Assembly (NCBI RefSeq): GCF_018156225.1
Contig: NZ_JAGTAR010000029.1
Coordinates: 1-64,000, forward strand
Direction: 5' to 3'
DNA: 64,000 nt
Origin: Carboxylicivirga sediminis
GTDB taxonomy: Bacteria > Bacteroidota > Bacteroidia > Bacteroidales > Marinilabiliaceae
Shown here: in pieces, positions 17,720 to 45,494 of the stretch
Layout: every line of letters begins with the position of its first letter
Position numbering within the stretch: the stretch's first letter is position 1
Program-made: the position numbers and the translations under genes
The notes under the pieces: model-generated
Seen by the model: the letters and a program-made list of their open reading frames with translations, nothing else
Databases searched by the model: none
What the model was told of the DNA's origin: nothing

Positions 17720-19603
17720 ATGAGATACCTCAACCTCCTGTTTGTATGGCTAACAATGACGAGCCTTTCGGCAAGTAATCTTGCAGAAAAAGACATTATA
17801 ACAAAAGTCAATGAAGTCACTGTGTTTTTGAAAGGAGCACAGGTGAACCGCACTAAGTCCATCGAACTCAGCAAGGGCACGCAGCTGCTTCGCTTTTCGG
17901 GCCTATCGCCCTATATCGATGCCAAAAGCATACAAGTGAAAGCCAATGGCGCCCTGACCGTAATGTCCGTTAATCATCAGCAGAACTATCTGAACCAGCT
18001 AAAACACTCTGATGAAATCAAAAAACTGCAAACTCAGAAAAAAGAATTGGATGCACAACTACAGTTAATACATGCCTATCAGTCGGTGACACTTGAAGAG
18101 CTGGAGTTTTTAAAAGCTAACCGTTCGCTGGGCGGAAAAAACGAGCAACTGAGCCTGAGCAACCTGCAGCAAACATCTACCTATTATGGTAAGCGCCTGA
18201 AGGAGCTAAAACTACAAGAGATAGAACACAGTCAACAAATCAATTTGTTACAAACCGAGCTAACCAAGCTGGAGCACCAAATCAGAACGCTATCGGGCCA
18301 GAAAGAACACCCTAGCGGAGAGGTGCTGGTGAAGGTAGATGTTAAAACGCCTTGCAAAGCCCGTTTCGAGTTGTCATACCTGGTGAGTAATGCCGGCTGG
18401 TTCCCATCCTACGACATCAGGTCCAAAACCATTAGCGAGCCGGTGCAGCTCATCTATAAAGCCAATGTACAACAGGATACCAAAGTGGACTGGAACAATG
18501 TAAAGCTCACCTTTTCATCTTCTGACCCCAAAGCATCAGGAGTGGCCCCCGAATTGAAAACCTATTACCTGGATTACAACATGCTGCCACCCAACTACGA
18601 GATGGCAGTGAATGAGGTGAGCGGAAGGGTGTTGGACGATATGAACGAACCCTTGCCAGGCGTTAATGTGGTGGTAAAAGGCACTTCAATTGGCACAGTT
18701 ACCAATATGGATGGCTACTACTCCATTACCATCCCCAACAATGCGGCCTATCTGGAGTATTCGTTTGTTGGCTTTGAGCAAAAAACGCTGCCCATCACCG
18801 GGGCTAACCTCAATGTTAAGCTAACACTTGATGCAGTTGGCCTGGACGAAGTAGTGGTGACAGGCTATGGAGGTGATATCAGCTCGGCTTTACAAGGACG
18901 TGCCGCAGGTGTAAGTGTGCGACCTAAAAAAGAGAAAAGTATAAAGATAAGAGGTACATCGAGCCTTGCTCTACCTACCAGACAGGTTAGAAACCAAACA
19001 ACGGTTGATTTTCAGATAAAACAGACCTACACCATTCCTACGGATAATAAAAACTACACGGTGGATATGGATGCCTATGAGTTGGATGCCAGCTACCAAT
19101 ACTATTGCGTGCCTAAGATCGATCGCGATGCCTTTCTGATAGCCCGGATTACCGACTGGGAACAATACAACCTGCTGGAGGGAGAAGCGAACATATTTTT
19201 TGAGGATACTTACATTGGTAAAACCCTGCTGGATGTGCGCTATGCCAGCGATACACTCAACCTATCACTCGGCCGTGATAAGCAGGTGCTTGTTTCGCGT
19301 GAGACAGTTAAAAATTATACTACCAGGCAGTTTATTGGCAATAAAAAGCAGGACAGCAAAGCGTGGGAGACTACCATACGAAATAATAAGAACCAGACCA
19401 TTAACCTGATTGTGTTAGACCAAATACCTGTATCGACCCTTGAGGAGATTGAAGTAAAAATAGACGAACTAAGCAAAGGACTGCTAAACAAGGATACCGG
19501 AGAAGTGAGCTGGGAGATGAGCATGGCACCAACTGAACAGACCAGACTCCAGCTTAAATACACGGTGAAGTATCCTAAATATCGTAACTTGGTGATTGAG
19601 TAA
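17720..19603 (+). CDS. MuiA-like DUF4139 protein with embedded SusC-like segment
   Basis: 627 residues, secreted (signal peptide about 1-19). An N-terminal DUF4140-like domain (VNEVTVFLKGAQVNR) is followed by a coiled coil (about 90-195), then a DUF4139 beta-rich domain. Residues about 299-415 interrupt DUF4139 with a CarboxypepD_reg domain (VSGRVLDDMNEPLPGVNVVV), a TonB-box-like VGLDEVVVTGYG and a shortened plug-like piece (ALQGRAAGVSV ... IKIRGTSSLA), as at the N-terminus of SusC receptors. DUF4139 resumes at about 420. No receptor barrel is present. MuiA-type proteins were named for mucoidy inhibition in E. coli contexts; the role here is unknown, probably envelope. It shares a promoter motif with the downstream SIMPL gene. 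Confidence 0.85.
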   Translation: MRYLNLLFVWLTMTSLSASNLAEKDIITKVNEVTVFLKGAQVNRTKSIELSKGTQLLRFSGLSPYIDAKSIQVKANGALTVMSVNHQQNYLNQLKHSDEIKKLQTQKKELDAQLQLIHAYQSVTLEELEFLKANRSLGGKNEQLSLSNLQQTSTYYGKRLKELKLQEIEHSQQINLLQTELTKLEHQIRTLSGQKEHPSGEVLVKVDVKTPCKARFELSYLVSNAGWFPSYDIRSKTISEPVQLIYKANVQQDTKVDWNNVKLTFSSSDPKASGVAPELKTYYLDYNMLPPNYEMAVNEVSGRVLDDMNEPLPGVNVVVKGTSIGTVTNMDGYYSITIPNNAAYLEYSFVGFEQKTLPITGANLNVKLTLDAVGLDEVVVTGYGGDISSALQGRAAGVSVRPKKEKSIKIRGTSSLALPTRQVRNQTTVDFQIKQTYTIPTDNKNYTVDMDAYELDASYQYYCVPKIDRDAFLIARITDWEQYNLLEGEANIFFEDTYIGKTLLDVRYASDTLNLSLGRDKQVLVSRETVKNYTTRQFIGNKKQDSKAWETTIRNNKNQTINLIVLDQIPVSTLEEIEVKIDELSKGLLNKDTGEVSWEMSMAPTEQTRLQLKYTVKYPKYRNLVIE

Positions 19604-19630
19604 ATTTTTTCAAAAAAAATTAGAAGGGTG

Positions 19631-19671
19631 TTTATGGAATTAAACCCAATGCGGCATCCTTATAGCGACAA
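19631..19671 (+). promoter_or_regulatory. Conserved two-block promoter motif (copy 2)
   Basis: TTTATGGAAT, 13 bp, then GCATCCTTATAGCGACAA, ending 31 bp before the SIMPL start codon. Block order, spacing and distance to the ATG match copy 1. Confidence 0.65.
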
Positions 19672-19702
19672 ATAATTTATAAAACCATTTAAACAGATAG
19701 TT

Positions 19703-20422
19703 ATGAAACGTACAACCTACATTAGCCTGATGATTCTATTTATTGCCAATACCCTTGTGGCTCAAAACAGTAATCGCATCAAAGTAGAAGGGCAGGCACG
19801 CATAAGCGAGGTGCCTGAAGAAATCATTGTGTCAGTTGACCTGACGGTGAAGGACAGTCTTTATCAGGAATGCTTCAGCAAGGCCATGGAAAGCCTGAAA
19901 ACACTGAAGCACACCTTTGAAAAGAATGGTATCGACCCAAAATTTATTAAATCCAAGGCCATATCAGTTAACGAGGCCTATGAGTGGCAGCAAAATAAAC
20001 GCATTAAGTCGGGTTATGTGGCCAACATTTCTTTGGAAGTGAAGGACGCCTTTACTCAAAAGTTTTCGGATGCATTATTAAAGAGTCTGAATCGGGCTGA
20101 TTTAAACATCAACTACCGCCTGGCATTTGGCTTCAGCGAAGCACAAAAAGAGAAATTAAAAGCAAAAGCTATTGAACTGGCTGTGGCCGATGCCCAACAA
20201 AAAGCAGAGATTATAGCCAATGCAGCAGGCGTAAAGCTAACAGGCATTGCCAATATCAATTACGGAGCCGATACACCTTCTTTCCGCCCAATGGATATGA
20301 TGATGGATAAAGAAATGACACCTGCCATTACCAGAGCTGATAATTTTTCGGGTGTTGACCTGAACCCCAAAGAACAAGTGATTATAAGTGCCATTTACAT
20401 GGAGTGGACATTTGCCGAGTAA
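19703..20422 (+). CDS. SIMPL (DUF541) domain protein
   Basis: 239 residues, secreted (signal peptide MKRTTYISLMILFIANTLVAQ). A single SIMPL/DUF541 domain with IKVEGQARISEVPEEIIVSVDLTVKD near the N-terminus and the central DAQQKAEIIANAAGVKL motif typical of the fold. Periplasmic or outer-membrane associated. SIMPL proteins are linked to oxidative or envelope stress in other bacteria (family knowledge), but the biochemical role is unsettled. Sharing a promoter motif with the DUF4139 gene suggests a common envelope response. Confidence 0.9.
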   Translation: MKRTTYISLMILFIANTLVAQNSNRIKVEGQARISEVPEEIIVSVDLTVKDSLYQECFSKAMESLKTLKHTFEKNGIDPKFIKSKAISVNEAYEWQQNKRIKSGYVANISLEVKDAFTQKFSDALLKSLNRADLNINYRLAFGFSEAQKEKLKAKAIELAVADAQQKAEIIANAAGVKLTGIANINYGADTPSFRPMDMMMDKEMTPAITRADNFSGVDLNPKEQVIISAIYMEWTFAE

Positions 20423-20490: not shown

Positions 20491-20799
20491 TTATGCTTCC
20501 GTATTCTCACCCTCTGTATCTTTTCCTTCTTTTTCGCAACAAGCTTTCTTTTCAGCATCTGTGCATTCTTTAGCAGTGCTATCTTTTTCACAGCAAGCTT
20601 TCTTTTCAGCATCAGTACACTCTTTTGCTGTGCTGTCTTTTTCGCAACAAGCTTTTTCAGCTTCAGCTTCAACTGTTGCCTCAACAGTGGTTTCTACAGC
20701 TGCTTTGTCTTTAGCCTCTTCACCTTGTGCATTAGTTTTCATTCCACATGATGAAACCACCATTGCTGCTACTGCCAATACTACTAGAATTCTTTTCAT
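20491..20799 (-). CDS. Small Cys/Glu/Lys-rich repeat lipoprotein
   Basis: 102 residues. Lipoprotein signal MKRILVVLAVAAMVVSSC with lipobox VSSC, then an acidic low-complexity stretch. An 18-residue unit (KACCEKDSTAKECTDAEK) follows twice plus a partial third copy, then an acidic tail. Each unit holds a CC pair and one more Cys, giving eight cysteines after the lipobox. No family recognised; metal or thiol chemistry can be imagined but is not shown. The 54-bp DNA period proves internal duplication. It is expressed towards the SIMPL gene and ends at the shared terminator. Confidence 0.7.
   Translation of the reverse strand: MKRILVVLAVAAMVVSSCGMKTNAQGEEAKDKAAVETTVEATVEAEAEKACCEKDSTAKECTDAEKKACCEKDSTAKECTDAEKKACCEKEGKDTEGENTEA
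20541..20662 (-). repeat. 54-bp tandem coding repeat
   Basis: AAGCTT recurs at 20541, 20595 and 20649, an exact 54-bp period with a few synonymous differences between copies. Two full units and part of a third encode the CC-containing repeats of the lipoprotein. Confidence 0.85.
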
Positions 20800-21007: not shown

Positions 21008-23488
21008 CTAAAAATGCAGCTTCAAATATAACAAAGGCGTAAAAGGAACGGCTTCAGGGTTGATGTACACTGTATTAAGCTGATCGAATGGAACACGATT
21101 AAACTGGTTATATTTGATATTATCAGCATCTGTTAGATTTAATACTGATAGACCTATTTCGCCATCAAATTTTGTTGATGCGAGTCTGTACACTAGCGAT
21201 GCATCCAGTCGGTTGTAATCAGCCTCTGTATAGCTTTGATCGACATAGCTGTTATACAGAGGAAAGCCGGAACCGTATACATAGCTGGCTGATAGGTGGA
21301 AACGCCCGAGGTTAAGCAAGCCGGCCAGTTTTACTTCATGCCGCTGATCCTGAAATGCCCTTCGATACTCGTCTTTTTGATAAAACGGAAAATGATCTTC
21401 TGTTTTACTCAATGAATAGGAGGCCCATACCGAATGTCCTTTAAAATCTTTCTTAGCATAAAAATCTATACCATAAGAGCGGCTGTCGCCAATAAAAATA
21501 TAGCTCTCCTGGCGGTAACGAATAAAGCGGGTTAAGCCATCATTGGTTTTGTAATAGGTATCAATGCTGAACAGAAAATTTTTAGGTGTGTAAGCCCCTC
21601 CCAGCACATAGTGCGTTGAACTGATTACGGGTACTTCATCATTATCGGCAATAGACCAGGAGTATCGATAGTTACCACTTGCATCTTCCACCGAGCTTTT
21701 AACTAAAAACTGATGATAGCGTCCCCACGAGGCATTCAGCTTAATATTACCCGATGCCCTGAATGACAGACTCAGGCGCGGATCGAAATACAACTTGTTA
21801 AGAAAAAAGGAATGATTCATGCGTAGGCCCGCTGTCATATACAAGCGCGAAGCCAGCTTAAGTTCATTCTGGGCATATATACTCAGGCGGTTGGCCCGTT
21901 CTGTGAGGTCGATGTAGCGTGTATCAAAAGTATCTTCATACAGCACCAAATCGTTATGCACGAAATCAAGACCCATTGTCAGGCTATTTCGCTCTCCCAT
22001 CTGAAATCTATTTTCCCACTGAGCAGACAGTTCGCCCACATCATTTTGGTCCTGTTCATCAGCTCTCACTACTTTAAAGGTATTACGACGATTACTCACC
22101 TCGCGCAGCTGTGAATAGTGGGAATATAGGGCCGAATAACTGACTTTTAAATTAGATGAAAGACCATTCGCAAGTGTTTTACCATAAAAAAGTGTCGCAC
22201 CCAACTGATGATTATCTTCCCGGGTTTGTTGCTCCCAGCTACTTCTATCCCGCTCTTGTGAGGCATTAACCAAGAAGTCATCATCAGCATAGAGCATACT
22301 CATGTATAACAGGTCGCCATTATCTCCCTGTAAAGAGTATTTGATGTTGAAATCGCGAAACTCATAATCAGGAATTGCGTCAATCTGACTATTAGAATTG
22401 TTGTTGCTTTTATAACTGACATCATCCTTATCAAACATGTTGTAGTAGGTTTGTCTGAAAGCCAGCATCAGAGATGATTTCCTGAACAACGGTACTTCAA
22501 CCATACCATTGAGCGTCTGGTTATTGATGAACAAATTAACACCGGGCTTATTTAAATTACCATTCTTACCTGCAATATTAACAATGCCCCCCACCACATC
22601 ATCATTGGGCACTCCATATCCACCTTTTTGAATCTCTATGCTTTTGGCCACATAAGGGTTTACGGCACTGATGTTGTCATTAAAATTTTTCAGCCCCCAA
22701 ATGGTGAAACCATCAAACTTAACACGGCTGGTACCTTCGGGGCTGCCCCAAATAATCAGATCGTTGGGTTGCTCGCCAGCTGCCAGAATCCCCGGTTGTA
22801 AACGTAAGAGATTAAAAACCGAGTTATCACCGTTTCCGGGCAGGTAGTTGGCAATGTGGTGGTTCAGGCTTGTAAGGCCGGATGCTTCACCAATCTGTGT
22901 TGACTTCTCCACAATGTTATTGGTAATCACTACCTCTTTAATACCAAAAACCGATGGTTGTAATACAATGGTATGCTGCGCACCGGCCACCAAAACAGTA
23001 TCAAGCATATAACATCCCAAGTGCGAGGCTGTTACTTCATATACACTATCCTCCTGAAAGTTGAAACTAAACATGCCTTTGATGTCTGTCACTGTCTGCT
23101 GATCATTGGCCCTGATATGCGAAAAGGGCAATGGCTCGCCCGTTTTTGCTTCAATAATTTTTCCTACCAGCGTAAAGCTTTTCAATGGCTTGGTTTGCTT
23201 TACCGGGTAGATGATATACACCTCCCTGCTTTTTTGATAATCCAGTGGCAGCCCTTTTAAAATAGCTGAGAGTGCTTCGTCAATACTGTTAAAGCTTTGC
23301 TTTATGGTTATTTTATAGTGTGAAAGCTGCTCATCGTTAAAGGAAAACTGCAGCTGGTAGGCCTCCCGCCATTCAATGAGTAGTTCATTCAGGGGCCTGG
23401 AATGGCAATCCACCTCAATAGTTTGTGAAAAAACTGCAGAGGTGGATAAAATCCAAGTAGATATAAAAAAAACAATAATTCGTTTCAC
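21008..23488 (-). CDS. TonB-dependent outer-membrane receptor with STN signalling domain
   Basis: 826 residues. Signal peptide, then an STN (secretin/TonB short N-terminal) domain at about 25-95 that signals to FecR. A CarboxypepD_reg domain lies at about 105-180 and a TonB-dependent plug near 205-305 (TSLNHHIANYLPGNGDNSVFNLLRLQPGI, IQKGGYGVPNDDVVGGIVNI). The 22-strand-type beta-barrel runs to a terminal aromatic residue (YLKLHF). Role: energy-dependent uptake of an unknown ligand coupled to transcription. Third gene of the ECF-FecR-receptor operon, 49 bp after FecR. Confidence 0.92.
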   Translation of the reverse strand: MKRIIVFFISTWILSTSAVFSQTIEVDCHSRPLNELLIEWREAYQLQFSFNDEQLSHYKITIKQSFNSIDEALSAILKGLPLDYQKSREVYIIYPVKQTKPLKSFTLVGKIIEAKTGEPLPFSHIRANDQQTVTDIKGMFSFNFQEDSVYEVTASHLGCYMLDTVLVAGAQHTIVLQPSVFGIKEVVITNNIVEKSTQIGEASGLTSLNHHIANYLPGNGDNSVFNLLRLQPGILAAGEQPNDLIIWGSPEGTSRVKFDGFTIWGLKNFNDNISAVNPYVAKSIEIQKGGYGVPNDDVVGGIVNIAGKNGNLNKPGVNLFINNQTLNGMVEVPLFRKSSLMLAFRQTYYNMFDKDDVSYKSNNNSNSQIDAIPDYEFRDFNIKYSLQGDNGDLLYMSMLYADDDFLVNASQERDRSSWEQQTREDNHQLGATLFYGKTLANGLSSNLKVSYSALYSHYSQLREVSNRRNTFKVVRADEQDQNDVGELSAQWENRFQMGERNSLTMGLDFVHNDLVLYEDTFDTRYIDLTERANRLSIYAQNELKLASRLYMTAGLRMNHSFFLNKLYFDPRLSLSFRASGNIKLNASWGRYHQFLVKSSVEDASGNYRYSWSIADNDEVPVISSTHYVLGGAYTPKNFLFSIDTYYKTNDGLTRFIRYRQESYIFIGDSRSYGIDFYAKKDFKGHSVWASYSLSKTEDHFPFYQKDEYRRAFQDQRHEVKLAGLLNLGRFHLSASYVYGSGFPLYNSYVDQSYTEADYNRLDASLVYRLASTKFDGEIGLSVLNLTDADNIKYNQFNRVPFDQLNTVYINPEAVPFTPLLYLKLHF

Positions 23489-23537
23489 GTAATCAACTTA
23501 TGTCCAATGACGGCAAATGCCTTTATCAGTATACTAT

Positions 23538-24422
23538 CTATTGACTTACCTTATAGCCATAACTTGTTTTTTCAAGCTTTAGTCCCATCGACAGGCATAT
23601 CATGTTCATCACTTCATCGGCAGAACGGTTGCGAGAGAAGTTACCACTATACAAGTCATTCATTTGGCCCACTGTTTGGATGCGTACCCCGTACTGGCGC
23701 TCCACTTCTTCAAAAACAGTTTGAACAGGCGTTCCGGTAAAGAAGAACATATCGTTCATCCAGGAAATATTAGTTGCTGCGTCTTCCTCAACCTCACTTA
23801 CCAAGCTACCATTTGACTGGATATAGGCCTGCATATTAGGGGTAATATCGGTTGATTCGCCACTAAGCACACTCACTACTCTCACTTTACCGGTATAGCA
23901 GGTTACTTTATACTCATTTTTGCGGGCATAAATATTAAAACTTGTGCCCAATACAATGGTTCGCCCAAGTGAAGAAACCACTTCAAATGATTGACCTTTT
24001 TGAACCTTAAAGAAGCCTTCGCCTTCAAACTGCACTTCACGATTGAAACGCCACCATAAAGGTTGGTACTTGACAACTGAACCTGCATTGAGTTCAATAC
24101 TGGAACCATCTGGTAAAAGGGCGGTCAGGTGCTGACCCATAGGCGCACTCACTGTTTTGGTATACAAACGGAAGAATGCAGTTGTGGCTAATAACACCAC
24201 CAGCAAAGCGGCCACGGTCATCAGTAACGGACGTAATGTTCTGACCTTTGCAGGCATGGTTTCAGGCTGCACTCTTTCGCTGGGCGATGCTTCCATAGTT
24301 GCCTCCAGCTCTTGCCACACATCATGCTTTGAACGCGAATAGGATGGTTCAAGCTCTGGCAACGACCTTAAAAAGTCTTCATCGTTGCGCCATTGGTCGT
24401 TATGTAACTGTTCGTTCTTCAT
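23538..24422 (-). CDS. FecR-type transmembrane anti-sigma factor
   Basis: 294 residues. A cytosolic N-terminal sigma-binding segment is followed by one membrane helix (about 65-85, LLMTVAALLVVLLATTAFF). The periplasmic FecR domain shows GQHLTALLPDGSSIELNAGS, GEGFFKVQKGQSFEV and LGTSFNIYARK, and a C-terminal DUF4974/STN-like domain comes last. It relays receptor occupancy to the sigma factor encoded just upstream. Its start overlaps the sigma stop by 4 bp (ATGA-type), so the two are translationally coupled. Confidence 0.93.
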   Translation of the reverse strand: MKNEQLHNDQWRNDEDFLRSLPELEPSYSRSKHDVWQELEATMEASPSERVQPETMPAKVRTLRPLLMTVAALLVVLLATTAFFRLYTKTVSAPMGQHLTALLPDGSSIELNAGSVVKYQPLWWRFNREVQFEGEGFFKVQKGQSFEVVSSLGRTIVLGTSFNIYARKNEYKVTCYTGKVRVVSVLSGESTDITPNMQAYIQSNGSLVSEVEEDAATNISWMNDMFFFTGTPVQTVFEEVERQYGVRIQTVGQMNDLYSGNFSRNRSADEVMNMICLSMGLKLEKTSYGYKVSQ

Positions 24423-24907
24423 TGTACTGCCAGTGCTTCTCTTAGAAATTGTAATGCGTGCTTCATCCGCTTTTCTACGGCCTTGATACTTAGTTCGAGC
24501 CGTTGGGCGATTTCATGGTACTTTAGTTCGTCGTTGCGGCTCATCAAAAATACCTCTCTTTGTTTTTCAGGCATCCGTCTAAGCGCCTTTTCATAGTTTG
24601 TTTTTAATTCTTCATAACTGACGGCCTCTTCGGGTGTTTGACTGCTGCTGTCGTCGGGTGGCCTGGCCCTGAACGATTGCTCCGTTTGGCTATGTCTGTA
24701 CTTACTAACCAAAGCATCTTTTGCCATTTTGTAGAGTAATCCAACCAATTCCTCGGGTCGTTTATCTAATTGTTTCTCCCACAATTTAAGGAATACATCC
24801 TGAACAATGTCGGTTGCCAGTTCAGCATCACCACAGCGGTAATATAGGAAATTACGCAAGTGATCAAATTGCTCATCAAACAATCGTTTAAAATCTTCCC
24901 GTTTCAA
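24419..24907 (-). CDS. ECF sigma factor (FecI-like)
   Basis: 162 residues. Sigma-70 region 2 (LFDEQFDHLRNFLYYRCGDAELATDIVQDVFLKLWE, about 9-44) and region 4 (ALRRMPEKQREVFLMSRND...YHEIAQRLELSIKAVEKRMKHAL, about 105-155), joined by a short linker. It belongs to the Bacteroidetes-expanded ECF group and is expected to direct transcription of the receptor operon when FecR is inactivated. First gene of the operon. Confidence 0.93.
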   Translation of the reverse strand: MKREDFKRLFDEQFDHLRNFLYYRCGDAELATDIVQDVFLKLWEKQLDKRPEELVGLLYKMAKDALVSKYRHSQTEQSFRARPPDDSSSQTPEEAVSYEELKTNYEKALRRMPEKQREVFLMSRNDELKYHEIAQRLELSIKAVEKRMKHALQFLREALAVQ

Positions 24908-24977
24908 AATAGTGATAATTGATGGTCTTTAGCTTAGCTAATTTACTACGAAAATATTGAATGTCATCATTGTGGTG

Positions 24978-25009
24978 AAAAAGCCGAAGAAGCACGTTTA
25001 CTTCTTCGG
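24978..25009 (-). terminator. Terminator of the DYGDG lipoprotein gene
   Basis: Perfect 9-bp stem (24984-24992 with 25001-25009), 8-nt loop, and a minus-strand T-run from A residues 24978-24982. It separates the lipoprotein gene from the ECF operon. Confidence 0.8.
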
Positions 25010-25034
25010 TCTTTATACGGAATCGGGAAATTGA

Positions 25035-25979
25035 TTATTGTCCGTTTTGATTTTGATTACGTTCTTGGCGGCGTTCACGCTTCCATTTACCTATTACAAA
25101 CTGCTCAGAACCTTCGGCTGTGGTCATGGTAGCAATGTTGTCGCATTCGCCATCGCCGTAGTTTATGGTGGCAAACTGAACACCATTCTTGTATAAAGCT
25201 ACCTCACCTGCAACAATCCAGCGGCAGCCACCTTTTTTAATCAGTCGGTTGGTGATTTCACGACGATAGCTGTTACCATCAGAATCCACGCATTCAACAT
25301 TACCCGTGATTTCAAATACATCATCAGTCGGGTCGAAAGGTGTAGCCATACCAGCTGACCAAACGCGTTCGTACTCAGCATAGCGGTCAATGGTTGTTCC
25401 GTCTTCCAATGTGAAAGTTAAGTCACGTACAATGGTCACTTTCATTTCATCAATCAGGAAGGTTTTTACAATGGTTCCTGAAATACCAACCCCATCAACA
25501 CTGAAATCCTGGAATGTGATGGTTCGGGTAGCTCCATTCACCAATCGCGAATCGGTTTGCACAATAACAATCACACCCGCAATGATACGTCCATTGGCCA
25601 GTTCAATGCCATCGCCGTAATCGAGTGTGATGGTGCGTGGCCAGCCGCCTTCTTCCTTTTCAATCAGAATACTGGGGCAAACACCCAGTTTATAACGCTC
25701 GCGGAAACGGTTGCGTGTTTGATCGCCACCTGCTTTAAGACTTGCATCTCCCTCTACCGCCATGGCTACTTCTGCAGCTTCATCGGTACCGGTAAACAGG
25801 TCAACTTCAAATTCGGCTGCTTCGGCCACATCATCCAGGGCCGCTTCGGTGGTCACAACCGATTCAGTAGTGGATTTCAGATCCACATCAGCCATTGGCA
25901 TATCGTCAATAATACTGTCGTTTTTATCGCAAGCTGCCAGGGCCGCCATAACTGCTAATGATAATAATACCTTTTTCAT
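25035..25979 (-). CDS. Lipoprotein of unknown function
   Basis: 314 residues. Lipoprotein signal MKKVLLSLAVMAALAAC, then a roughly 60-residue Asp/Glu/Ala-rich linker. A beta-rich region follows with two similar pieces (ITLDYGDGIELANGRIIAGV near 118, and INYGDGECDNIATM near 275), suggesting a duplicated domain. The C-terminus is Gln/Asn/Arg-rich (RRQERNQNQNGQ). Not recognised as a named family. It lies between two ECF sigma systems, divergent from one and upstream of the other, with a long untranslated region, so ECF control is possible. Confidence 0.75.
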   Translation of the reverse strand: MKKVLLSLAVMAALAACDKNDSIIDDMPMADVDLKSTTESVVTTEAALDDVAEAAEFEVDLFTGTDEAAEVAMAVEGDASLKAGGDQTRNRFRERYKLGVCPSILIEKEEGGWPRTITLDYGDGIELANGRIIAGVIVIVQTDSRLVNGATRTITFQDFSVDGVGISGTIVKTFLIDEMKVTIVRDLTFTLEDGTTIDRYAEYERVWSAGMATPFDPTDDVFEITGNVECVDSDGNSYRREITNRLIKKGGCRWIVAGEVALYKNGVQFATINYGDGECDNIATMTTAEGSEQFVIGKWKRERRQERNQNQNGQ

Positions 25980-26067
25980 AACTTCTTTTTTTATGTGATT
26001 AGTTAATTTCTTAGTCTGAAGAGCTGTCAGCGTTCCGTTTGAATCCTGTTTAAAACGCTCTTACACT

Positions 26068-26095
26068 GACATACCGCATTAGAAGGAAACTACCC
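26068..26095 (-). promoter_or_regulatory. Possible ECF-type promoter of the lipoprotein gene
   Basis: Minus-strand GGGTA (26091-26095), a 19-bp gap and TGTC (26068-26071), preceded by poly-T/poly-A. The layout resembles promoters I associate with Bacteroidetes FecI-type sigma factors, but that is from memory and the gap is long. Tentative. Confidence 0.25.
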
Positions 26096-26198
26096 TACCA
26101 ATAATTTGAAGTTTTTTTGAAAAAAAATTTTAAGCATCAGTGCTTATGGATGATACAAACATATTTTCCCTAATTTTACCTCAGATATAAACCATCAC

Positions 26199-26774
26199 TT
26201 GGCACCTCAAACACATATAACGCACGACTGGAAAACCCGTGCCGGCTATGAGCAACTCTTTAATATGCATTATAGTCGTATGGTGGCCTATGCCTTTAAT
26301 TTTCTGAAAGAGCAGGAGGCTTCGGAGGAAGTTTGCCAGGAGGTGTTTTTTCAATTGTGGATCAACAGAGACAAAACAGAGATTAAAACAGCCATCAGCT
26401 CCTACTTGTACCGGGCTGTGCGTAACCGTTGTATTAATTTGATTAAGCACATTGCTATACGCGAAACCTACAAGCAGTATAACAGTGAGCAAATCGAAAA
26501 AAGTGATAATGATTTCACCGATACACTCACTGTTAGTGAATTAGACCAGAAAATAAGAAGTGCCATTGACCAAATGCCCCTTCAGCGCAAGAAAATATTT
26601 ATCATGAGTCGTTATGAGGAGATGACTTATAAGGAGATTGCCGATAAAATGGGATTATCAAAAAAAACGATAGAAAACCAAATGGGCAAGGCCCTGCAAT
26701 ACCTGCGGGAAGAGCTCAAGGATTATTTGCCTTTACTGCTCATCTTTTTTCAACAAATCATCAATGGCAAATAG
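26199..26774 (+). CDS. ECF sigma factor (second system)
   Basis: 191 residues from a TTG start. The first in-frame ATG, about 22 codons later, would delete part of region 2, so TTG is preferred. Region 2 is YEQLFNMHYSRMVAYAFNFL...ASEEVCQEVFFQLW. Region 4 is IDQMPLQRKKIFIMSRYEEMTYKEIADKMGLSKKTIENQMGKAL. A hydrophobic C-terminal tail (YLPLLLIFFQQIINGK) is frequent in Bacteroidetes FecI-like sigmas. A FecR-type gene follows at 70 bp. Predicted to activate the STN/surface-repeat gene and perhaps its paralogue downstream. Confidence 0.92.
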   Translation: MAPQTHITHDWKTRAGYEQLFNMHYSRMVAYAFNFLKEQEASEEVCQEVFFQLWINRDKTEIKTAISSYLYRAVRNRCINLIKHIAIRETYKQYNSEQIEKSDNDFTDTLTVSELDQKIRSAIDQMPLQRKKIFIMSRYEEMTYKEIADKMGLSKKTIENQMGKALQYLREELKDYLPLLLIFFQQIINGK

Positions 26775-26843
26775 GGTTATGGAACTAATAAAATGTCATA
26801 TTAATAAGCTAAATGAAAGGCAAGGTCAGATTGCTTAAACTAT

Positions 26844-27848
26844 ATGCAGAATGAACCAACACATATCACCATCGACCTGTTAACCAGGTTTCTGCTTGGC
26901 GAGGTATCGCATGATGAGCAGCTGATGGTCATCAAGTGGCTGGAGGATAACCCGGCCAACCAGTCTGCGTTTGACCAATTGGAAGCTACATGGCTAAAGA
27001 GTGGTGAGCTAAATCCTGCCCCACTGCCGGTTGATGTGCCTAATGCCTGGAACACCCTTGAAAAACGCCTTGATGAGCATGACCAGAAGAAAACCATACG
27101 TCGCTTTCTGAATCCGGCAATTTATGCGGCCGCCTCCATTGCGCTGATTGTTTTACTGTTTAACATCTTCAAGCAGGAAGCTGATGTGCATCAACCATTT
27201 ATTGTCAGCAATCAAACCACCACAAGCAAAACCGACACTCTGCCTGATGGCTCCATCGTAACGCTTAACCAGGGCAGCCAACTAAGTTACCTGAGCCAGG
27301 CTGAGGACATGCACCGCCATATGGAACTGCAAGGCGAAGCCTTTTTTGATGTGGTACGCGATACCCTTCGGCCATTTATTGTGAAAGCTGGTATGGGTGG
27401 CATCCGGGTGCTGGGAACACGTTTTAATGTAAAAGTCACCAATTCAAGCAATGTAACGGTAGATGTGGAGTCGGGCTTGGTGGAACTGTTCTACCCTGTT
27501 GTATCATCAGGCGATACTTTGCGTTTAGAGCTGAAAGCCGGTGAGCGCGGCATCCTCTCGCATACGCAACAAAACCTAAGAAGTACAACATCGACACCTT
27601 CTTCACTCTTTTGGAAAGATAGAACCCTGCTGTTTAAAAACAAGCCCCTGCAAGAGGTTTTTAAAGTACTGGAGCAAAGCTACGACGTGCACATAAATTG
27701 TAACGATAACAACATAAATCTGACCAACCTGACCGCTACTTTTAAAGATAAAGAGGTACACGAGGTGCTGGATGTGATAGCCGCTACCTTTGATATTGTC
27801 TACGAACAACAAGGTCAGACCTACCGAATATACAAAGCTCAAAAATGA
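26844..27848 (+). CDS. FecR-type transmembrane anti-sigma factor (second system)
   Basis: 334 residues. The N-terminal cytosolic segment includes TRFLLGEVSHDEQLMVIKWLEDNP. One membrane helix lies at about 90-107 (IYAAASIALIVLLFNIF). The periplasmic FecR domain shows TDTLPDGSIVTLNQGSQL, LQGEAFFDVVRD and VLGTRFNV, followed by a C-terminal DUF4974 domain (NKPLQEVFKVLEQSYDVHI). Its stop overlaps the start of the STN protein by 4 bp, giving tight coupling to an unusual partner. Confidence 0.94.
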   Translation: MQNEPTHITIDLLTRFLLGEVSHDEQLMVIKWLEDNPANQSAFDQLEATWLKSGELNPAPLPVDVPNAWNTLEKRLDEHDQKKTIRRFLNPAIYAAASIALIVLLFNIFKQEADVHQPFIVSNQTTTSKTDTLPDGSIVTLNQGSQLSYLSQAEDMHRHMELQGEAFFDVVRDTLRPFIVKAGMGGIRVLGTRFNVKVTNSSNVTVDVESGLVELFYPVVSSGDTLRLELKAGERGILSHTQQNLRSTTSTPSSLFWKDRTLLFKNKPLQEVFKVLEQSYDVHINCNDNNINLTNLTATFKDKEVHEVLDVIAATFDIVYEQQGQTYRIYKAQK

Positions 27849-29626
27849 AGCAATTCCTTTTCAGCCTCCTAATATGGTTTATACCTCTGGTTATAACGGG
27901 TCAAAACTATCTGGAAATGCCTGTCACAATGCAGTTGCAGGATGAGCCTTTAGCACAGGTTTTAACTGAACTGGAGAGCCAGCTAGATTTCAATTTTTCG
28001 TATGAGGCACAGCTATTTGATGCGAATCGACGGGTAAGCATTCATGCCAACAAAAGCCCATTGAAAAAGGTACTAAAATCCACACTTGGCAATAGATACA
28101 ACTTTAAAGTAGTTGGCACGCATGTGATTATCCAAAGAACTCTGGCACCACTTGATAAGCGAGCCGATAAATTTAGCTTTTCGGGGCAGGTGGTAGGACC
28201 GGATAACCAACCCCTTGAAAATGCCATTGTATACGAAGCCAACCGCCAGCAGGCTACTTTCACCAGTACGGATGGCTACTACCAACTGAACTTTCGGGAT
28301 AAGGAGCACCCTGTGGCTTTAAGCATCAGCCACATTGGTTTTCGCGACACGGTTATTTATGTGAGTAAAGGGCAGATGCAGCAAGTACGCATCATTCCCT
28401 TACCCGAACAACGGATACTGCCCAGTAACTTTAGTCCGATGGAAACGCGCAGTACTACTACTCTGTTCGGCCAGCATCAATTAACAGGCATAAGCGATAT
28501 TGGTCTGGCTAAATTTATGGTGAATGACGAAGCCCTGTACGTTTCCAACAACCTAAACGTGTTCAACTGGCAACGAGCGCAGGTATCGCTTCTGCCCTAT
28601 GTGGGTACCAACGATTTAATGAACGGCTTAACAACCAATAATGCTTCATTTAATGTTATTGCAGGCTATACAGCCCAAATAGAAGGCGTTGAGTTTGGGG
28701 CAGTCTCCAACTTTATTCAAAACAGTGTTTATGGATTTCAGGCTGGAGGCATTAGTAATGTCGTTGGTAAGCACGTGAGTGGGCTTCAGGCAGCGGGTAT
28801 TACCAATGTTGTACTGGGTAATATGGAAGGTGGCCAGGCCAGTGGCGTTATCAACCGTGTTAAAGGGCACCACAACGGTATAATGGCAGCGGGTGTTATC
28901 AACATCACCGAAGGCAATAACCACTATCCATCATCCAAAGGCATAAACGCGCAGGTATCGGGACTGACGAACCTTCACCTCAAAGACACAGCCAACCTGC
29001 AGATTTCATCAGTATGGAATCAAGCCGAACACATCAATGGCGCTCAGATAAGCGCCCTGGTCAACTACACCAAAAAACTAAACGGCGTGCAAATTGGTAT
29101 TGTTAATATTGCCGACACGCTTGAAACCGGTGTCCCCATTGGTTTAATCAACATTGTGAAATATGGCTACCATGCCATCGAGTTTTCAACCAACGAGCTC
29201 TTCCGCTATAATGTAGCGTTTAAAACAGGTGGCAATCATCTGTATAGTTTTTTAAACGCGAGCTTTGATAACTACATCGGTGCGGGCTATGGATTTGGCT
29301 ACATCACCAACTATAATCGTAAAACATCATTTAATATAGACGTTTATGGGGCGGCCCTAATGGACCCCAATGCAGAAACAAATTCATACATGGGTACACT
29401 ATACCGTGCACAACTAGGAATTAATTACCTTGTATTTAAACACTTTACCATTTCGACTGGTCCGGCTTTTAACTTCTTTACCTTGTTTAAAGATACAGGC
29501 AGCGAGCCCCCTGCCGAATTGAACAGGCCTTCGGGGATGTATTATGGCGGCTATTTTCTTGAGAAAGCCATCAGTACTCAATCGAATCAACACTGGATTG
29601 GCTGGCATATGAGTGTCAGGTTTTAA
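27845..29626 (+). CDS. STN + CarboxypepD + surface-repeat outer-membrane protein
   Basis: 593 residues. Signal peptide about 1-19, then an STN domain at about 28-98 (MQLQDEPLAQVLTELESQL) and CarboxypepD_reg at about 112-180 (SFSGQVVGPDNQPLENAIV). From about 270 to 445 there are roughly eight tandem units of the type GxxxxGxxNxxxxxxxG (e.g. GFQAGGISNVV, GLQAAGITNVV, GGQASGVINRV, GVQIGIVNIA). A C-terminal beta-rich part ends in HMSVRF, with terminal Phe as in outer-membrane barrels. The repeats resemble the LA_2272-type surface repeat of spirochaetes (from memory). There is no TonB plug or receptor barrel. The STN domain and ATGA overlap with FecR indicate it is the sensor of this sigma system. 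Confidence 0.85.
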   Translation: MKQFLFSLLIWFIPLVITGQNYLEMPVTMQLQDEPLAQVLTELESQLDFNFSYEAQLFDANRRVSIHANKSPLKKVLKSTLGNRYNFKVVGTHVIIQRTLAPLDKRADKFSFSGQVVGPDNQPLENAIVYEANRQQATFTSTDGYYQLNFRDKEHPVALSISHIGFRDTVIYVSKGQMQQVRIIPLPEQRILPSNFSPMETRSTTTLFGQHQLTGISDIGLAKFMVNDEALYVSNNLNVFNWQRAQVSLLPYVGTNDLMNGLTTNNASFNVIAGYTAQIEGVEFGAVSNFIQNSVYGFQAGGISNVVGKHVSGLQAAGITNVVLGNMEGGQASGVINRVKGHHNGIMAAGVINITEGNNHYPSSKGINAQVSGLTNLHLKDTANLQISSVWNQAEHINGAQISALVNYTKKLNGVQIGIVNIADTLETGVPIGLINIVKYGYHAIEFSTNELFRYNVAFKTGGNHLYSFLNASFDNYIGAGYGFGYITNYNRKTSFNIDVYGAALMDPNAETNSYMGTLYRAQLGINYLVFKHFTISTGPAFNFFTLFKDTGSEPPAELNRPSGMYYGGYFLEKAISTQSNQHWIGWHMSVRF

Positions 29627-29820
29627 ACCATCGAGAACATGCTATTTCAACTGATAGTGCAAATATGTAGTACATTTTTGTCAATTAAATTGACATATCA
29701 AACACTATTACACATTTAATTATCAACCACGTAAACACACTCATCCATACTTAAAGACGTGTAGAATCTTATTAAATCAAGCCCTTCAAATAAAATTTAC
29801 TTTTTTTCATTTACCGAATG

Positions 29821-29830
29821 GGGGTACCCC
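29821..29830 (+). promoter_or_regulatory. GGGGTACCCC palindrome upstream of the free surface-repeat gene
   Basis: Perfect 10-bp palindrome preceded by T-rich sequence, 48 bp before the chosen start of the downstream gene. It may be an operator or part of an ECF promoter; unproven. Confidence 0.3.
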
Positions 29831-29877
29831 TTGTAATGCTTGTCATCCTGTTGTTAAAACAAAATAGCAACAAAAGA

Positions 29878-30990
29878 ATGATACAGATGACAACAAAACT
29901 TATGACCCTGACAGTGGCACTATTACTGATTGTAACAGGTATAAAAGCTCAGGAAGAAAAAAAGGTGGCCACCGCCCAGGTATCCTTTGCCTATCCTTTA
30001 GGAACCAATGGACATGGCTCCATGCACATTGCCAATAAATATTCATTCAACATTCTGTATGGCGTCAACGGCGGCGTTAAACAATTTGAATTGGGTGGAA
30101 TTGGCAACCAAAACATGGGCGATGTGAGTGGCGTGCAGATTGGTGGCCTGGTAAATATCACCAATGGTTCGAGCAATGGCGCCATCATTAGTGGTATTGC
30201 CAATATTACCTCTCAATCGGCCAATGGCTTGCATCTGGCAGGCATCACCAACTATACGCAGGAAAATGCCAATGGGGCTCAAATAGCCGGTATTGCAAAC
30301 GTTAATGGTGGCACATCCAATGGCCTGATGCTATCAGGCCTGGCCAATGGGGCGGTGGATGATATGACTGGTGCTCAGATTGGGTTTATAAACACAGCAC
30401 ATCAATCGATGAATGGTTTCCAGCTGGGTTTTATCAACTTCGCCAATAAAATGAAGGGCTTTCAGCTGGGATTTATTAACGTTGCCGATAGCCTGGATGG
30501 GGCAGCACTCGGTTTCATCAGCATTGCCAAAAACGGCTACTATGCTTTTGAAGCCACCAACAGTGAAGTGATGTACGCAAACCTGAGCTACAAAATGGGA
30601 AAGACACAGTTATATAATATCTATACGATGGGTTACAGCCAATACAGGCAAAAGGATGTATACAGCTACGGTGTAGGTTTAGGTACCCTCATTTCTTTAC
30701 ACAAGCGCCATGCCCTGGCCATTGAAGGCGTAACCAATCACATTGCTTACGACAACGACTGGGACGAGCTGAACCTGTTGAATAAGCTGAACCTGACCTA
30801 CCAGTTCCACATTACCAAGCGCATTTCTCTGATTGGTGGTCCGTCGCTTAACTTTTACATCACAGACCAGAAGGTAGGCAGCAAATATGGTACTCTGGAT
30901 ATGCCTTCAACCATTTGGGAACATGAGGGTAACCGCAATGGACAATATATGTGGATAGGTTATAATGTGGGTGTTAATATCCGTCTGTAA
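29878..30990 (+). CDS. Surface-repeat barrel protein, paralogue of the STN protein C-terminus
   Basis: 370 residues from the ATG that begins a good signal peptide (MIQMTTKLMTLTVALLLIVTGIKAQ); the upstream ATG at 29818 would add 20 unlikely residues. The mature protein has about nine GxxxxGxxN units (GVQIGGLVNI, GAIISGIANI, GLHLAGITNY, GAQIAGIANV, GFQLGFINFA, GFQLGFINVA). A C-terminal barrel-like region (ISLIGGPSLNFYIT ... IGYNVGVNIRL) aligns by eye with the end of the preceding protein (FTISTGPAFNFFT ... IGWHMSVRF). It lacks STN and CarboxypepD domains. Probable outer-membrane protein; function unknown. Confidence 0.82.
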   Translation: MIQMTTKLMTLTVALLLIVTGIKAQEEKKVATAQVSFAYPLGTNGHGSMHIANKYSFNILYGVNGGVKQFELGGIGNQNMGDVSGVQIGGLVNITNGSSNGAIISGIANITSQSANGLHLAGITNYTQENANGAQIAGIANVNGGTSNGLMLSGLANGAVDDMTGAQIGFINTAHQSMNGFQLGFINFANKMKGFQLGFINVADSLDGAALGFISIAKNGYYAFEATNSEVMYANLSYKMGKTQLYNIYTMGYSQYRQKDVYSYGVGLGTLISLHKRHALAIEGVTNHIAYDNDWDELNLLNKLNLTYQFHITKRISLIGGPSLNFYITDQKVGSKYGTLDMPSTIWEHEGNRNGQYMWIGYNVGVNIRL

Positions 30991-31028
30991 GCAACCCCCT
31001 AATATTACAACAAAAAAAATCTAACTGG

Positions 31029-31087
31029 GAGGAAGTACCCGCATGTATCCCAAAACACTCAACTACACCATGCTACAGTACTTCCTC
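31029..31087. repeat. Nested inverted repeat after the surface-repeat gene
   Basis: A perfect 10-bp inverted repeat (31029-31038 with 31078-31087) encloses a second one (GCATG 31041-31045 with CATGC 31069-31073). It could form a cruciform or a long hairpin. No T-tract, so it is not a classic terminator. Confidence 0.5.
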
Positions 31088-31183
31088 TTGCTCTTTGACA
31101 CTCATGAAATGAAACCTGCATAAGGAGAAGATTTGACTGGCAGCGTGGCACATACCTATATTAATGATTATAATTTTTTGATA

Positions 31184-32233
31184 TTACGGCCTCTTACCTG
31201 ATGAGTTATCGCCGCTTATAATGTTAGAAACAACTTTGTAACGCGGGAACTGGTCAAAGCATATTTTAGCAAATACAGTTAAAGGAATTGATAAGATTAG
31301 ACCCGGAATGCCCCAAATATAACCCCATAACATTAGCATAATCAGGATAACAATAACATTGACTGAGAACGTCTTACCCATAAAAACAGGTTCAAGTACA
31401 CCCCCCATCAAGCCTTGAACTGCAATTATAGACACTATAAAAAACAGCAATGTGCCACTTTGGTCCAACTCTACTAAGGCGAATAAGGCTAATAACACTA
31501 CCGAAATAATGGAGCCAATCATTTGAACAAAGTTTATGGCAAAGGCAAACAAGCCCCAAAAAATTGGGAAACTAACATTGAAAAAGACACAGGCCAAGCT
31601 AAAACCAATACCTGTGAGCAAACTGATAAAAAATTTTACTTGTACAAACTTAATGATGTCCTTCTCAACTTGGCGAAAGGCCTTTACAGATGAATACCTT
31701 ACCTTGAATAAGGTTGAATTCAAGAGTTTCTCAAAATTCATAGTTCCGGAAAGCAACAGTATGACAAAGAAGGCGGTTGTTAAGGTTAAAGACAAAGCAT
31801 TCCCAATGAAATCGATGGTCACGCCAATATTACTCAGCATGTTATTATTCTTAAAATAATGACTGAAGACTGATTCTCCTTGAACACGTGTGATGCCAAA
31901 GAAATCTTCAACCGAAACTATAACACCGACCAACTTTTCTTCAGCCGTTTTGAAAAAAGTACTATCAGCAGATAGTATCTCCTGACTGGATAATTTAATT
32001 AGCTCACCACCTACTTTGAATACACCTGTTATCACTATAATTACCAAGAGTAAACTAACAGTTTTAGGCACTCTTTTTTTGGCAAGCCAGCGCATTATTG
32101 GCAAAAATAAGAGTGAGATAAACATAGCCAATACCAATGGTATAAATATAAAAGACAGTACTTTAAGTAAGTAAAAAATAAAAGGAATGACTATAATTAA
32201 CAATAATGTGTTCGTTGTTTTAAGGTCGTTCAT
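31184..32233 (-). CDS. AI-2E family transporter
   Basis: 349 residues, seven to eight hydrophobic segments and the family pattern. The N-terminal pair of helices includes FIFIPLVLAMFISLLFLPIMRWLAKKRVP. A central extracytoplasmic loop follows, and the C-terminal LEPVFMGKTFSVNVIVILIMLMLWGYIWGIPGLILSIPLT motif region is diagnostic. The family exports small molecules; autoinducer-2 export (TqsA) and Na+/H+ antiport have been proposed for members. The substrate here is unknown. Separated from the upstream M3 peptidase gene by a terminator. Confidence 0.9.
   Translation of the reverse strand: MNDLKTTNTLLLIIVIPFIFYLLKVLSFIFIPLVLAMFISLLFLPIMRWLAKKRVPKTVSLLLVIIVITGVFKVGGELIKLSSQEILSADSTFFKTAEEKLVGVIVSVEDFFGITRVQGESVFSHYFKNNNMLSNIGVTIDFIGNALSLTLTTAFFVILLLSGTMNFEKLLNSTLFKVRYSSVKAFRQVEKDIIKFVQVKFFISLLTGIGFSLACVFFNVSFPIFWGLFAFAINFVQMIGSIISVVLLALFALVELDQSGTLLFFIVSIIAVQGLMGGVLEPVFMGKTFSVNVIVILIMLMLWGYIWGIPGLILSIPLTVFAKICFDQFPRYKVVSNIISGDNSSGKRP

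Positions 32234-44186: not shown

Positions 44187-45494
<1,308 letters not shown>

Follow-up and report, generated by a model that had tools for sequence, protein, structure and literature searches.

A probable transporter-less cell-surface signalling unit with a predicted solenoid–barrel sensor in Carboxylicivirga sediminis

The cassette and its domains

The stretch of DNA analysed here, referred to as the window, comprises the first 64,000 nucleotides of contig NZ_JAGTAR010000029.1 of Carboxylicivirga sediminis (assembly GCF_018156225.1). At 26199-30990, it carries genes for an extracytoplasmic function (ECF) sigma factor, a FecR-type regulator, a repeat protein with STN and CarboxypepD domains (the sensor), and a free-standing paralogue of the C-terminal half of the sensor. 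This arrangement, which an earlier note had read from the sequence, is confirmed by the open reading frames (ORFs) and by profiles, including the 4-bp ATGA overlap shared by the FecR and sensor ORFs. We consider it probable that these genes form a transporter-less cell-surface signalling (CSS) unit that tunes outer-membrane proteins and lipids. The features of the cassette are as follows:

26199..26774, forward strand: ECF sigma factor of the TIGR02985 type, TTG start (ORF list, profile)
26774..26797, forward strand: promoter-like site GGGTTA-N14-TGTC, one mismatch to the motif, between sigma and FecR
26844..27848, forward strand: FecR-type anti-sigma factor/regulator with FecR and FecR_C domains (profile matches)
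27845..29626, forward strand: STN-repeat sensor with signal peptide, STN, CarboxypepD, linker, beta-solenoid and 8-stranded barrel (profiles, model)
27914..28144, forward strand: STN domain of the sensor, residues ~24-100, profile match 49-96 (profile, model)
28166..28408, forward strand: CarboxypepD or SusC N-terminal-extension-like domain, residues ~108-188 (profile, comparison with 9hfj)
28565..29164, forward strand: beta-solenoid of ~16-residue coils, residues ~241-440, predicted to be periplasmic (model, structure comparison, loop lengths)
29165..29623, forward strand: 8-stranded OmpA-like barrel, residues ~441-593, C-terminal F (model, structure comparison, loop lengths)
29821..29844, forward strand: ECF-type promoter motif GGGGTA-N14-TGTC, exact, before the paralogue
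29887..30990 (listed ORF from 29818), forward strand: free-standing paralogue with signal peptide, solenoid and 8-stranded barrel, no STN

In the profile search, the sigma factor scored 166.4 bits against TIGR02985 (cut-off 126.4), as a FecI-like ECF sigma factor does. The FecR protein matched PF04773 with 55.9 bits (cut-off 24) and FecR_C, PF16344, with 54.3 bits (cut-off 24.4), and its hydrophobic segment at residues 91-109 completes the combination of membrane segment and C-terminal domain found in FecR-type regulators. The sensor matched CarbopepD_reg_2 with 33.2 bits (cut-off 32.2). The claim of the earlier note that this third protein keeps STN and CarboxypepD and lacks a TonB plug and barrel was borne out, since the Plug and TonB barrel models had no match in the protein encoded from 27845 at E ≤ 1, nor in any of the 76 full-length sensor homologues, of which all 76 matched CarboxypepD and 71 matched STN (at E ≤ 0.01). 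The start of the paralogue is most likely at 29887 (or 29878) rather than at the listed ATG at 29818, because the latter precedes the conserved promoter motif and because the relative in L025/L072 starts at the later Met. Scans of 25900-31300 for sigma-70 promoters and terminators gave no more than shuffled sequences did, and an Rfam search of the same region gave no match.

Judged from its domains, the sensor thus appears to provide the STN on an outer-membrane partner that is a feature of FecI/FecR/FecA signalling, with stronger support from the relatives than from the window itself. The cassette resembles the FecIRA, FoxIRA and FpvA systems in its ECF sigma factor, in a FecR with a C-terminal domain, in an N-terminal STN on an outer-membrane protein, and in the order sigma-FecR-sensor. 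Unlike those systems, it has a sensor in which a modelled solenoid and small 8-stranded barrel replace the plug and large TonB-dependent barrel, and its conserved motif-bearing neighbour is a paralogue of the barrel half. The unit therefore works like a CSS unit yet lacks the TonB transporter, the defining feature of the FecA type. The precedent for this is VreA of the PUMA3 system (VreA-VreI-VreR) of Pseudomonas aeruginosa, presented in PMC2729926 as the STN protein of a CSS unit without a TonB barrel, and this combination is also found in the window sensor and its homologues. VreA is, according to the same paper, small and mostly soluble with a TolA/TonB-like C-terminal domain, whereas the C-terminal part of the window sensor is modelled as an 8-stranded membrane barrel with a solenoid.

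In SusC/RagA receptors that have an STN and an N-terminal extension, the STN likewise precedes this CarboxypepD-like domain (9hfj); these receptors differ from the sensor in having the plug and TonB barrel. Residues 8-183 of the sensor can be aligned (32% identity, E 1.1e-15) to the N-terminal end of a frame of 1250 aa in the same genome. The window genome contains 25 further matches to the sensor, 24 of which align to its N-terminal ~210 residues and sit in receptor-sized frames of 836-1250 aa, the 25th being a 382-aa frame (E 0.008). A FecR gene lies beside all 20 of the large STN-type receptor frames examined in this genome, and such FecR/STN-receptor units are usually read as nutrient sensors.

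The repeat, its fold and its location

The free-standing gene had been described in the earlier note as a paralogue of the C-terminal half of the sensor without STN, and this is so: its ORF is 28% identical to the sensor over sensor residues 244-566 (E 2.7e-25). The paralogue belongs to the NCBIfam LA_2272 repeat family (NF047436), against which it scores 46.9 bits (cut-off 25); the sensor scores 24.0 bits in the protein scan and 29.5 bits in a six-frame search. All three matches to this repeat in the window genome fall in these two ORFs and, at E ≤ 0.01, the repeat is present in 71/76 sensors and 16/33 paralogues. The paralogue is not a member of the VC2662 equivalog NF047437 (26.6 bits, with 140 required). 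The LA_2272 and VC2662 proteins (NF047436, NF047437) have a repeat of ~16 residues in common with the sensor and paralogue; unlike them, one copy here is fused to STN and CarboxypepD. VC2662 is termed an uncharacterized hypothetical protein in PMC10865864, and no function was found for the repeat in open-access text. A link to the FecR system of Leptospira was not found either: according to PMC12155086, the N-terminal extension is missing from all TonB receptors of Leptospira, and the term "surface repeat" is absent from that text. In loci L170-L208, repeat-barrel genes without STN occur in other families of the phylum, with no FecR in the fetched flanks.

Structure prediction and a fold search, which the earlier note had proposed, were run for both proteins. 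AlphaFold2 models were made from 76 sequences for the sensor (75 of 80 loci and the window; L077, L105, L116, L122 and L139 were dropped as cut, short or split) and from 33 for the paralogue (32 loci and the window; L095, L098, L108, L110, L119, L126, L127 and L144 were left out as short or cut), with mean pLDDT and pTM values of 82.9 and 0.68 for the former and 86.5 and 0.64 for the latter. Residues 108-193 of the sensor resemble the CarboxypepD/SusC extension of 9hfj (Z 12.2, 1.8 Å, 80 residues). The solenoid (~241-440) resembles GlmU-type helices (Z ~12.5, rmsd ~10 Å), HxuA (4i84; Z 11.8, 2.9 Å, 164 residues) and tapirins. The barrel (441-593) resembles the designed barrel 6x9z (Z 14.5, 1.6 Å, 106 residues) and, aligned in sequence order, OmpA (1qjp; Z 13.6, 2.7 Å, 113 residues) and OprF (4rlc; Z 13.6, 2.7 Å, 119 residues). 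The comparison for the paralogue returned the same solenoid and barrel as in the sensor. Plain Foldseek was weak, with one match below 0.001 for the sensor and none for the paralogue, so that the fold assignment is based on the second-look aligner together with secondary structure. The strand-helix order of the modelled N-terminal part is compatible with an STN fold.

The repeats seen in the earlier note are therefore present, with a change in their number: instead of about eight, the model of the sensor has some ten to twelve coils of ~16 residues (strands read by eye). Given a rise of ~4.8 Å per solenoid coil, these would give a rod of 5-6 nm. Across homologues, the length of the solenoid mostly steps by ~16 residues (161, 176-177, 191-194, 207-209, 222-226, 239-240, 255 and 269), while other lengths, among them those of the window's clade (200, 217, 228 and 302), fall off these steps, as expected if whole coils were gained or lost and some insertions occurred. 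This variation in coil number speaks against a strict ruler role.

In the OmpA family, both ends of the 8-stranded barrel face the periplasm. In the 76 sensors, loops s2-s3, s4-s5 and s6-s7 are short and near constant (sd 0.0-0.3), loops s3-s4, s5-s6 and s7-s8 are variable (sd 1.2-2.6, with s7-s8 ranging from 17 to 34 aa), and the last residue is F or L in 67/76 sensors and 32/33 paralogues. Since the eight strands, the OmpA-like order and most of the loop lengths place both termini in the periplasm, the solenoid, as modelled, most likely lies on the periplasmic side, between the barrel and the STN. Another possibility, which had been the idea of the earlier note, is that the repeats are exposed on the cell surface as a ligand-binding or adhesive part; this would fit the NCBIfam label "surface repeat" and the likeness to HxuA and the tapirins, which are secreted or surface proteins. 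However, the alignment to OmpA and OprF puts the N-terminal side of the barrel in the periplasm, the STN, which is part of the same chain, could contact FecR only from the periplasm, and the barrel is too narrow to be likely to thread a solenoid. A surface position is hence quite improbable, and "surface repeat" is probably the wrong name. For the LA_2272 repeat proteins, the unit suggests both a location, in the outer membrane with the stalk in the periplasm, and a regulation.

Gene order, promoter motif and predicted targets

Relatives were collected in two ways. A search with the sensor against one genome per species gave 187 stretches with a relative, of which the best 80 were used; these carry titles such as Carboxylicivirga, Chitinophagaceae, Pedobacter, Dyadobacter and Emticicia, and the closest named relative among them is Carboxylicivirga mesophila (90% identity). 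A search with the repeat half, where STN was not required, matched 68/395 genomes of the phylum at E ≤ 1e-15 (the window's own included), and 60 regions were taken from 57 of the other 67. Loci were thus selected by sensor or repeat and not by FecR or sigma. The 101 loci L069-L169 were reduced to 93 distinct ones by removing one duplicate (L152 = L087) and leaving out seven without an STN+repeat ORF (L077, L105, L139, L149, L150, L151 and L168), among which L105 has STN and repeat in separate ORFs.

The order sigma-FecR-sensor, direct and on one strand, is kept in 88/93 distinct loci from many families, in agreement with the order that the earlier note had predicted for relatives. Chance association is excluded because of this conservation. 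Two of the five exceptions are cut by the contig end before sigma; in L148, a small ORF lies between sigma and FecR; L155 has no sigma; and L161 (genome G375) has an orphan sensor, an STN-CarboxypepD-repeat gene with neither FecR nor sigma beside it. All 17 matching genomes of the same class in the repeat-half search have an STN+repeat ORF, with FecR directly upstream in 16/17 and sigma before FecR in 15/17. By contrast, among the 43/60 fetched repeat regions without an STN+repeat ORF, FecR is found in 0/43 and a sigma match in one.

To see whether the cassette FecRs have a single origin, a FecR tree of 67 rows was built from every second cassette FecR (46/92), with the window's own as an addition, and 20 TonB-unit FecRs (19 from searches of the genome and genus, one from the window). 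The labels cassette and TonB unit require 3 changes on this tree, compared with 17.5 when shuffled (0/500 as low), and starred branches force at least 2. The TonB-unit FecR of the window falls among the cassette rows on a very long branch.

Two distant sensors without CarboxypepD, L015:736-2541 and L017:1387-2991 (reverse strand), are preceded by FecR-like ORFs. By eye, each has, midway along the chain and ahead of the repeats, a hydrophobic segment like a signal peptide, which gives the look of two secreted proteins joined into one.

A candidate promoter was first recognised as GGGGTA and TTGTC blocks upstream of the paralogue. On both strands of L069-L208, exact GGGGTA...TGTC pairs occur 55 times at spacing 14 and at most 4 times at any other spacing from 6 to 29. 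In the 93 distinct loci, sites with up to one mismatch lie upstream of 37/39 paralogues, 38/91 sigma genes, 10/93 FecR genes and 1/93 sensors, as well as 13/19 TonB-like genes, 8/27 DUF2807 genes and 5/335 other genes. At the control spacings of 11-13 and 15-17, the counts are 0-6 (paralogue), 0-1 (sigma), 0-2 (TonB-like and DUF2807 genes) and 0-5 (other genes), which puts the 5/335 at chance level. The motif was first noticed in part of these loci, which biases the counts upward; the control spacings, however, are built from identical blocks. An exact site was present at 0/44 paralogue-type genes located away from STN cassettes. The earlier note had left the role of the paralogue open; these promoter data point to a regulatory target and strongly suggest, as a prediction, that it is the main conserved output of the unit.

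A large regulon was considered and rejected on the basis of genome-wide counts. At spacing 14, 22 cassette genomes have 57 sites (17 at cassettes, 40 elsewhere) against 44 for the control, and 22 genomes without a listed sensor match have 18 against 30. At spacing 15, used as a negative control, 21 cassette genomes have 25 sites, 0 of them at the cassette (reversed control: 44), and 22 other genomes have 8 (reversed control: 40). With up to one mismatch, the window genome has 17 sites against 54 for the control, two of them in the cassette. A promoter private to the cassette sigma was likewise rejected: in this genome, 3/20 FecR genes of TonB-receptor CSS units carry a site with up to one mismatch, and 0/18 of the sigma genes of those units do. 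The motif probably represents a class of FecI-type promoters that other sigma factors use in part as well.

Away from the cassette, L255/L270 (contig C7 of genome G108, 45267-45412) contains two divergent exact sites ~100 bases apart, a possible further sigma target.

The conserved order together with one fixed motif spacing before the paralogue requires selection. This bears on the simplest explanation of the locus, that of an STN/CarboxypepD protein fused to a known repeat with no special role. Library models do exist for both parts, and the literature already uses the name "STN and carboxypeptidase regulatory-like domain-containing protein" (PMC12893687). Selection for the order and the spacing makes this explanation improbable, and no description of the unit was found in the literature searched, whose reach left out most subscription papers.

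Proposed function, and the genes around the cassette

In the proposed mechanism, the small 8-stranded barrel of the sensor would sit in the outer membrane and bear the solenoid as a stalk into the periplasm, followed there by a flexible linker, CarboxypepD and STN. By analogy with the named families, the STN would bind the C-terminal domain of FecR and govern FecR proteolysis; in PMC11637429, the STN-FecR contact of FoxA/FoxR is said to shield FecR from proteolysis when there is no signal. The freed sigma factor would read T[AG]GGGGTA-N14-TGTC promoters, its predicted targets being its own gene in many relatives, FecR in the window (one mismatch) and, above all, the paralogue. The latter, having no STN, could compete with the sensor for a ligand or partner (as feedback) or could be an effector. 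Genes for a lipid A acyltransferase, a fatty-acid hydroxylase fusion, DUF2807 proteins and TonB receptors without STN, which are linked or motif-bearing in relatives, suggest a response that would alter outer-membrane proteins and lipids.

Neighbours were counted up to ~4 kb past the sensor, or over a shorter distance where a contig ended, with BLAST single-linkage groups as clusters. In the 93 loci, they comprise the paralogue (44), a DUF2807 cluster (36), a TonB-like cluster without STN (25), a hydroxylase-DUF4833 cluster (14) and a lipid A acyltransferase cluster (11). Members below 600 aa make up 7/25 of the distinct TonB-like genes, some being cut at the stretch end, and members below 250 aa make up 3/14 of the hydroxylase cluster. 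Pfam scans found PF03279 in 4/4 acyltransferases scanned (of 11), DUF2807 in 5/5 scanned, and, in the hydroxylase cluster, both domains in L092 and DUF4833 alone in the shorter L083 gene. The acyltransferase lies within two genes of the paralogue on the same strand in all 11 loci having it, and the listed ORFs of the two overlap in six (L109, L114, L118, L120, L125 and L146). In L070 and L072, which are nearer relatives, it lies between sensor and paralogue with its own exact motif site; the window, L069 and L071 have no acyltransferase at that position. The acyltransferases of L074 and L076, which are too close to the stretch end to be among the nine tested for the motif, also have a site near their start.

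The linked lipid, DUF2807 and TonB-receptor genes led to the idea that the unit monitors how the outer membrane is faring and adjusts its proteins and lipids; what the signal itself would be is a guess, more readily doubted than accepted. To our knowledge, Bacteroidota have no well-known envelope pathway of the sigmaE/RseA type. With equal caution, the unit may be part of an envelope-sensing pathway widespread in this phylum, like sigmaE or Rcs of enterobacteria in role and built from CSS parts. By way of STN and FecR, the barrel-solenoid would report on outer-membrane lipids or assembly; the response would be a second barrel-solenoid without the signalling end (which might compete or give feedback), lipid A acylation and, in Pedobacter, fatty-acid hydroxylation.

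The TonB-like genes also support another explanation, in which the sensor is a dedicated relay for a separate TonB-dependent transporter, and the signal is still an imported substrate. These cluster genes near 25/93 loci have an STN match in none, and carry the motif (13/19 testable). Pfam scans of five of them gave Plug above cut-off in L080 and L132, the TonB barrel above cut-off in L090, Plug just under cut-off in L162, and neither in L081. The earlier note had proposed sensing without import, which holds for the sensor itself, in that it has no plug or barrel, and is less certain for loci with such a neighbour. However, 68/93 loci have no TonB-like gene within the flanks covered, and the one TonB receptor near the cassette in the window (21008-23488) has its own sigma and FecR. 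A split nutrient-sensing unit of this kind seems unlikely, if less so than either a surface-exposed solenoid or a mere domain fusion.

Several observations weigh against our proposal of a transporter-less unit that tunes the outer membrane. The STN match of the window sensor (20.6 bits, E 4e-4) is under the cut-off of 28.4, the STN part was barely covered by the structure comparison, and loop s1-s2, expected outside, is short and constant like the inner loops (sd 0.2 in the 76 sensors). Within the genus, the unit is patchy, with a full-length sensor in 4/13 other genomes and only a free-standing repeat gene in two more. The window cassette contains no lipid gene, and an envelope-lipid output is suggested by gene neighbourhood in relatives only. 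There, the lipid genes come mainly from two genera, with 14/14 hydroxylase-cluster loci in Pedobacter and 6/11 acyltransferase loci in Dyadobacter (the six with overlapping ORFs), so that the relatives are not independent in either case. Sites with up to one mismatch lie upstream of only 2/9 acyltransferases and 0/14 hydroxylase-cluster genes. Of the two exact sites in the window genome, one precedes the paralogue and the other is inside a galE-like ORF. The promoter class shared with TonB-unit FecR genes makes crosstalk possible. Finally, the TonB-like neighbours would fit a nutrient signal equally.

In many families, the CSS signalling arm thus appears coupled to another kind of outer-membrane component, for which both a promoter and a target can be predicted. 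This makes it testable how a phylum without a well-known sigmaE/RseA-type envelope pathway monitors its outer membrane.

Back-to-back with the cassette, at 21008-25979 on the reverse strand, is a full TonB-receptor CSS unit (sigma, FecR and an 826-aa receptor), along with a 314-aa lipoprotein-like ORF without a Pfam match; the sigma, FecR and a like-sized ORF recur next to the cassette in L069 and L072. Further away, 17720-20422 contains an ORF with a CarboxypepD-like insertion, which we take to be DUF4139-like, and then an ORF resembling by eye the SIMPL/DUF541 gene upstream of the L070 cassette. Between these regions, at 20491-20799 on the reverse strand, lies a short secreted-looking protein with near-perfect repeats of CCEKDSTAKECTDAEKKA, the opposite strand being open too.

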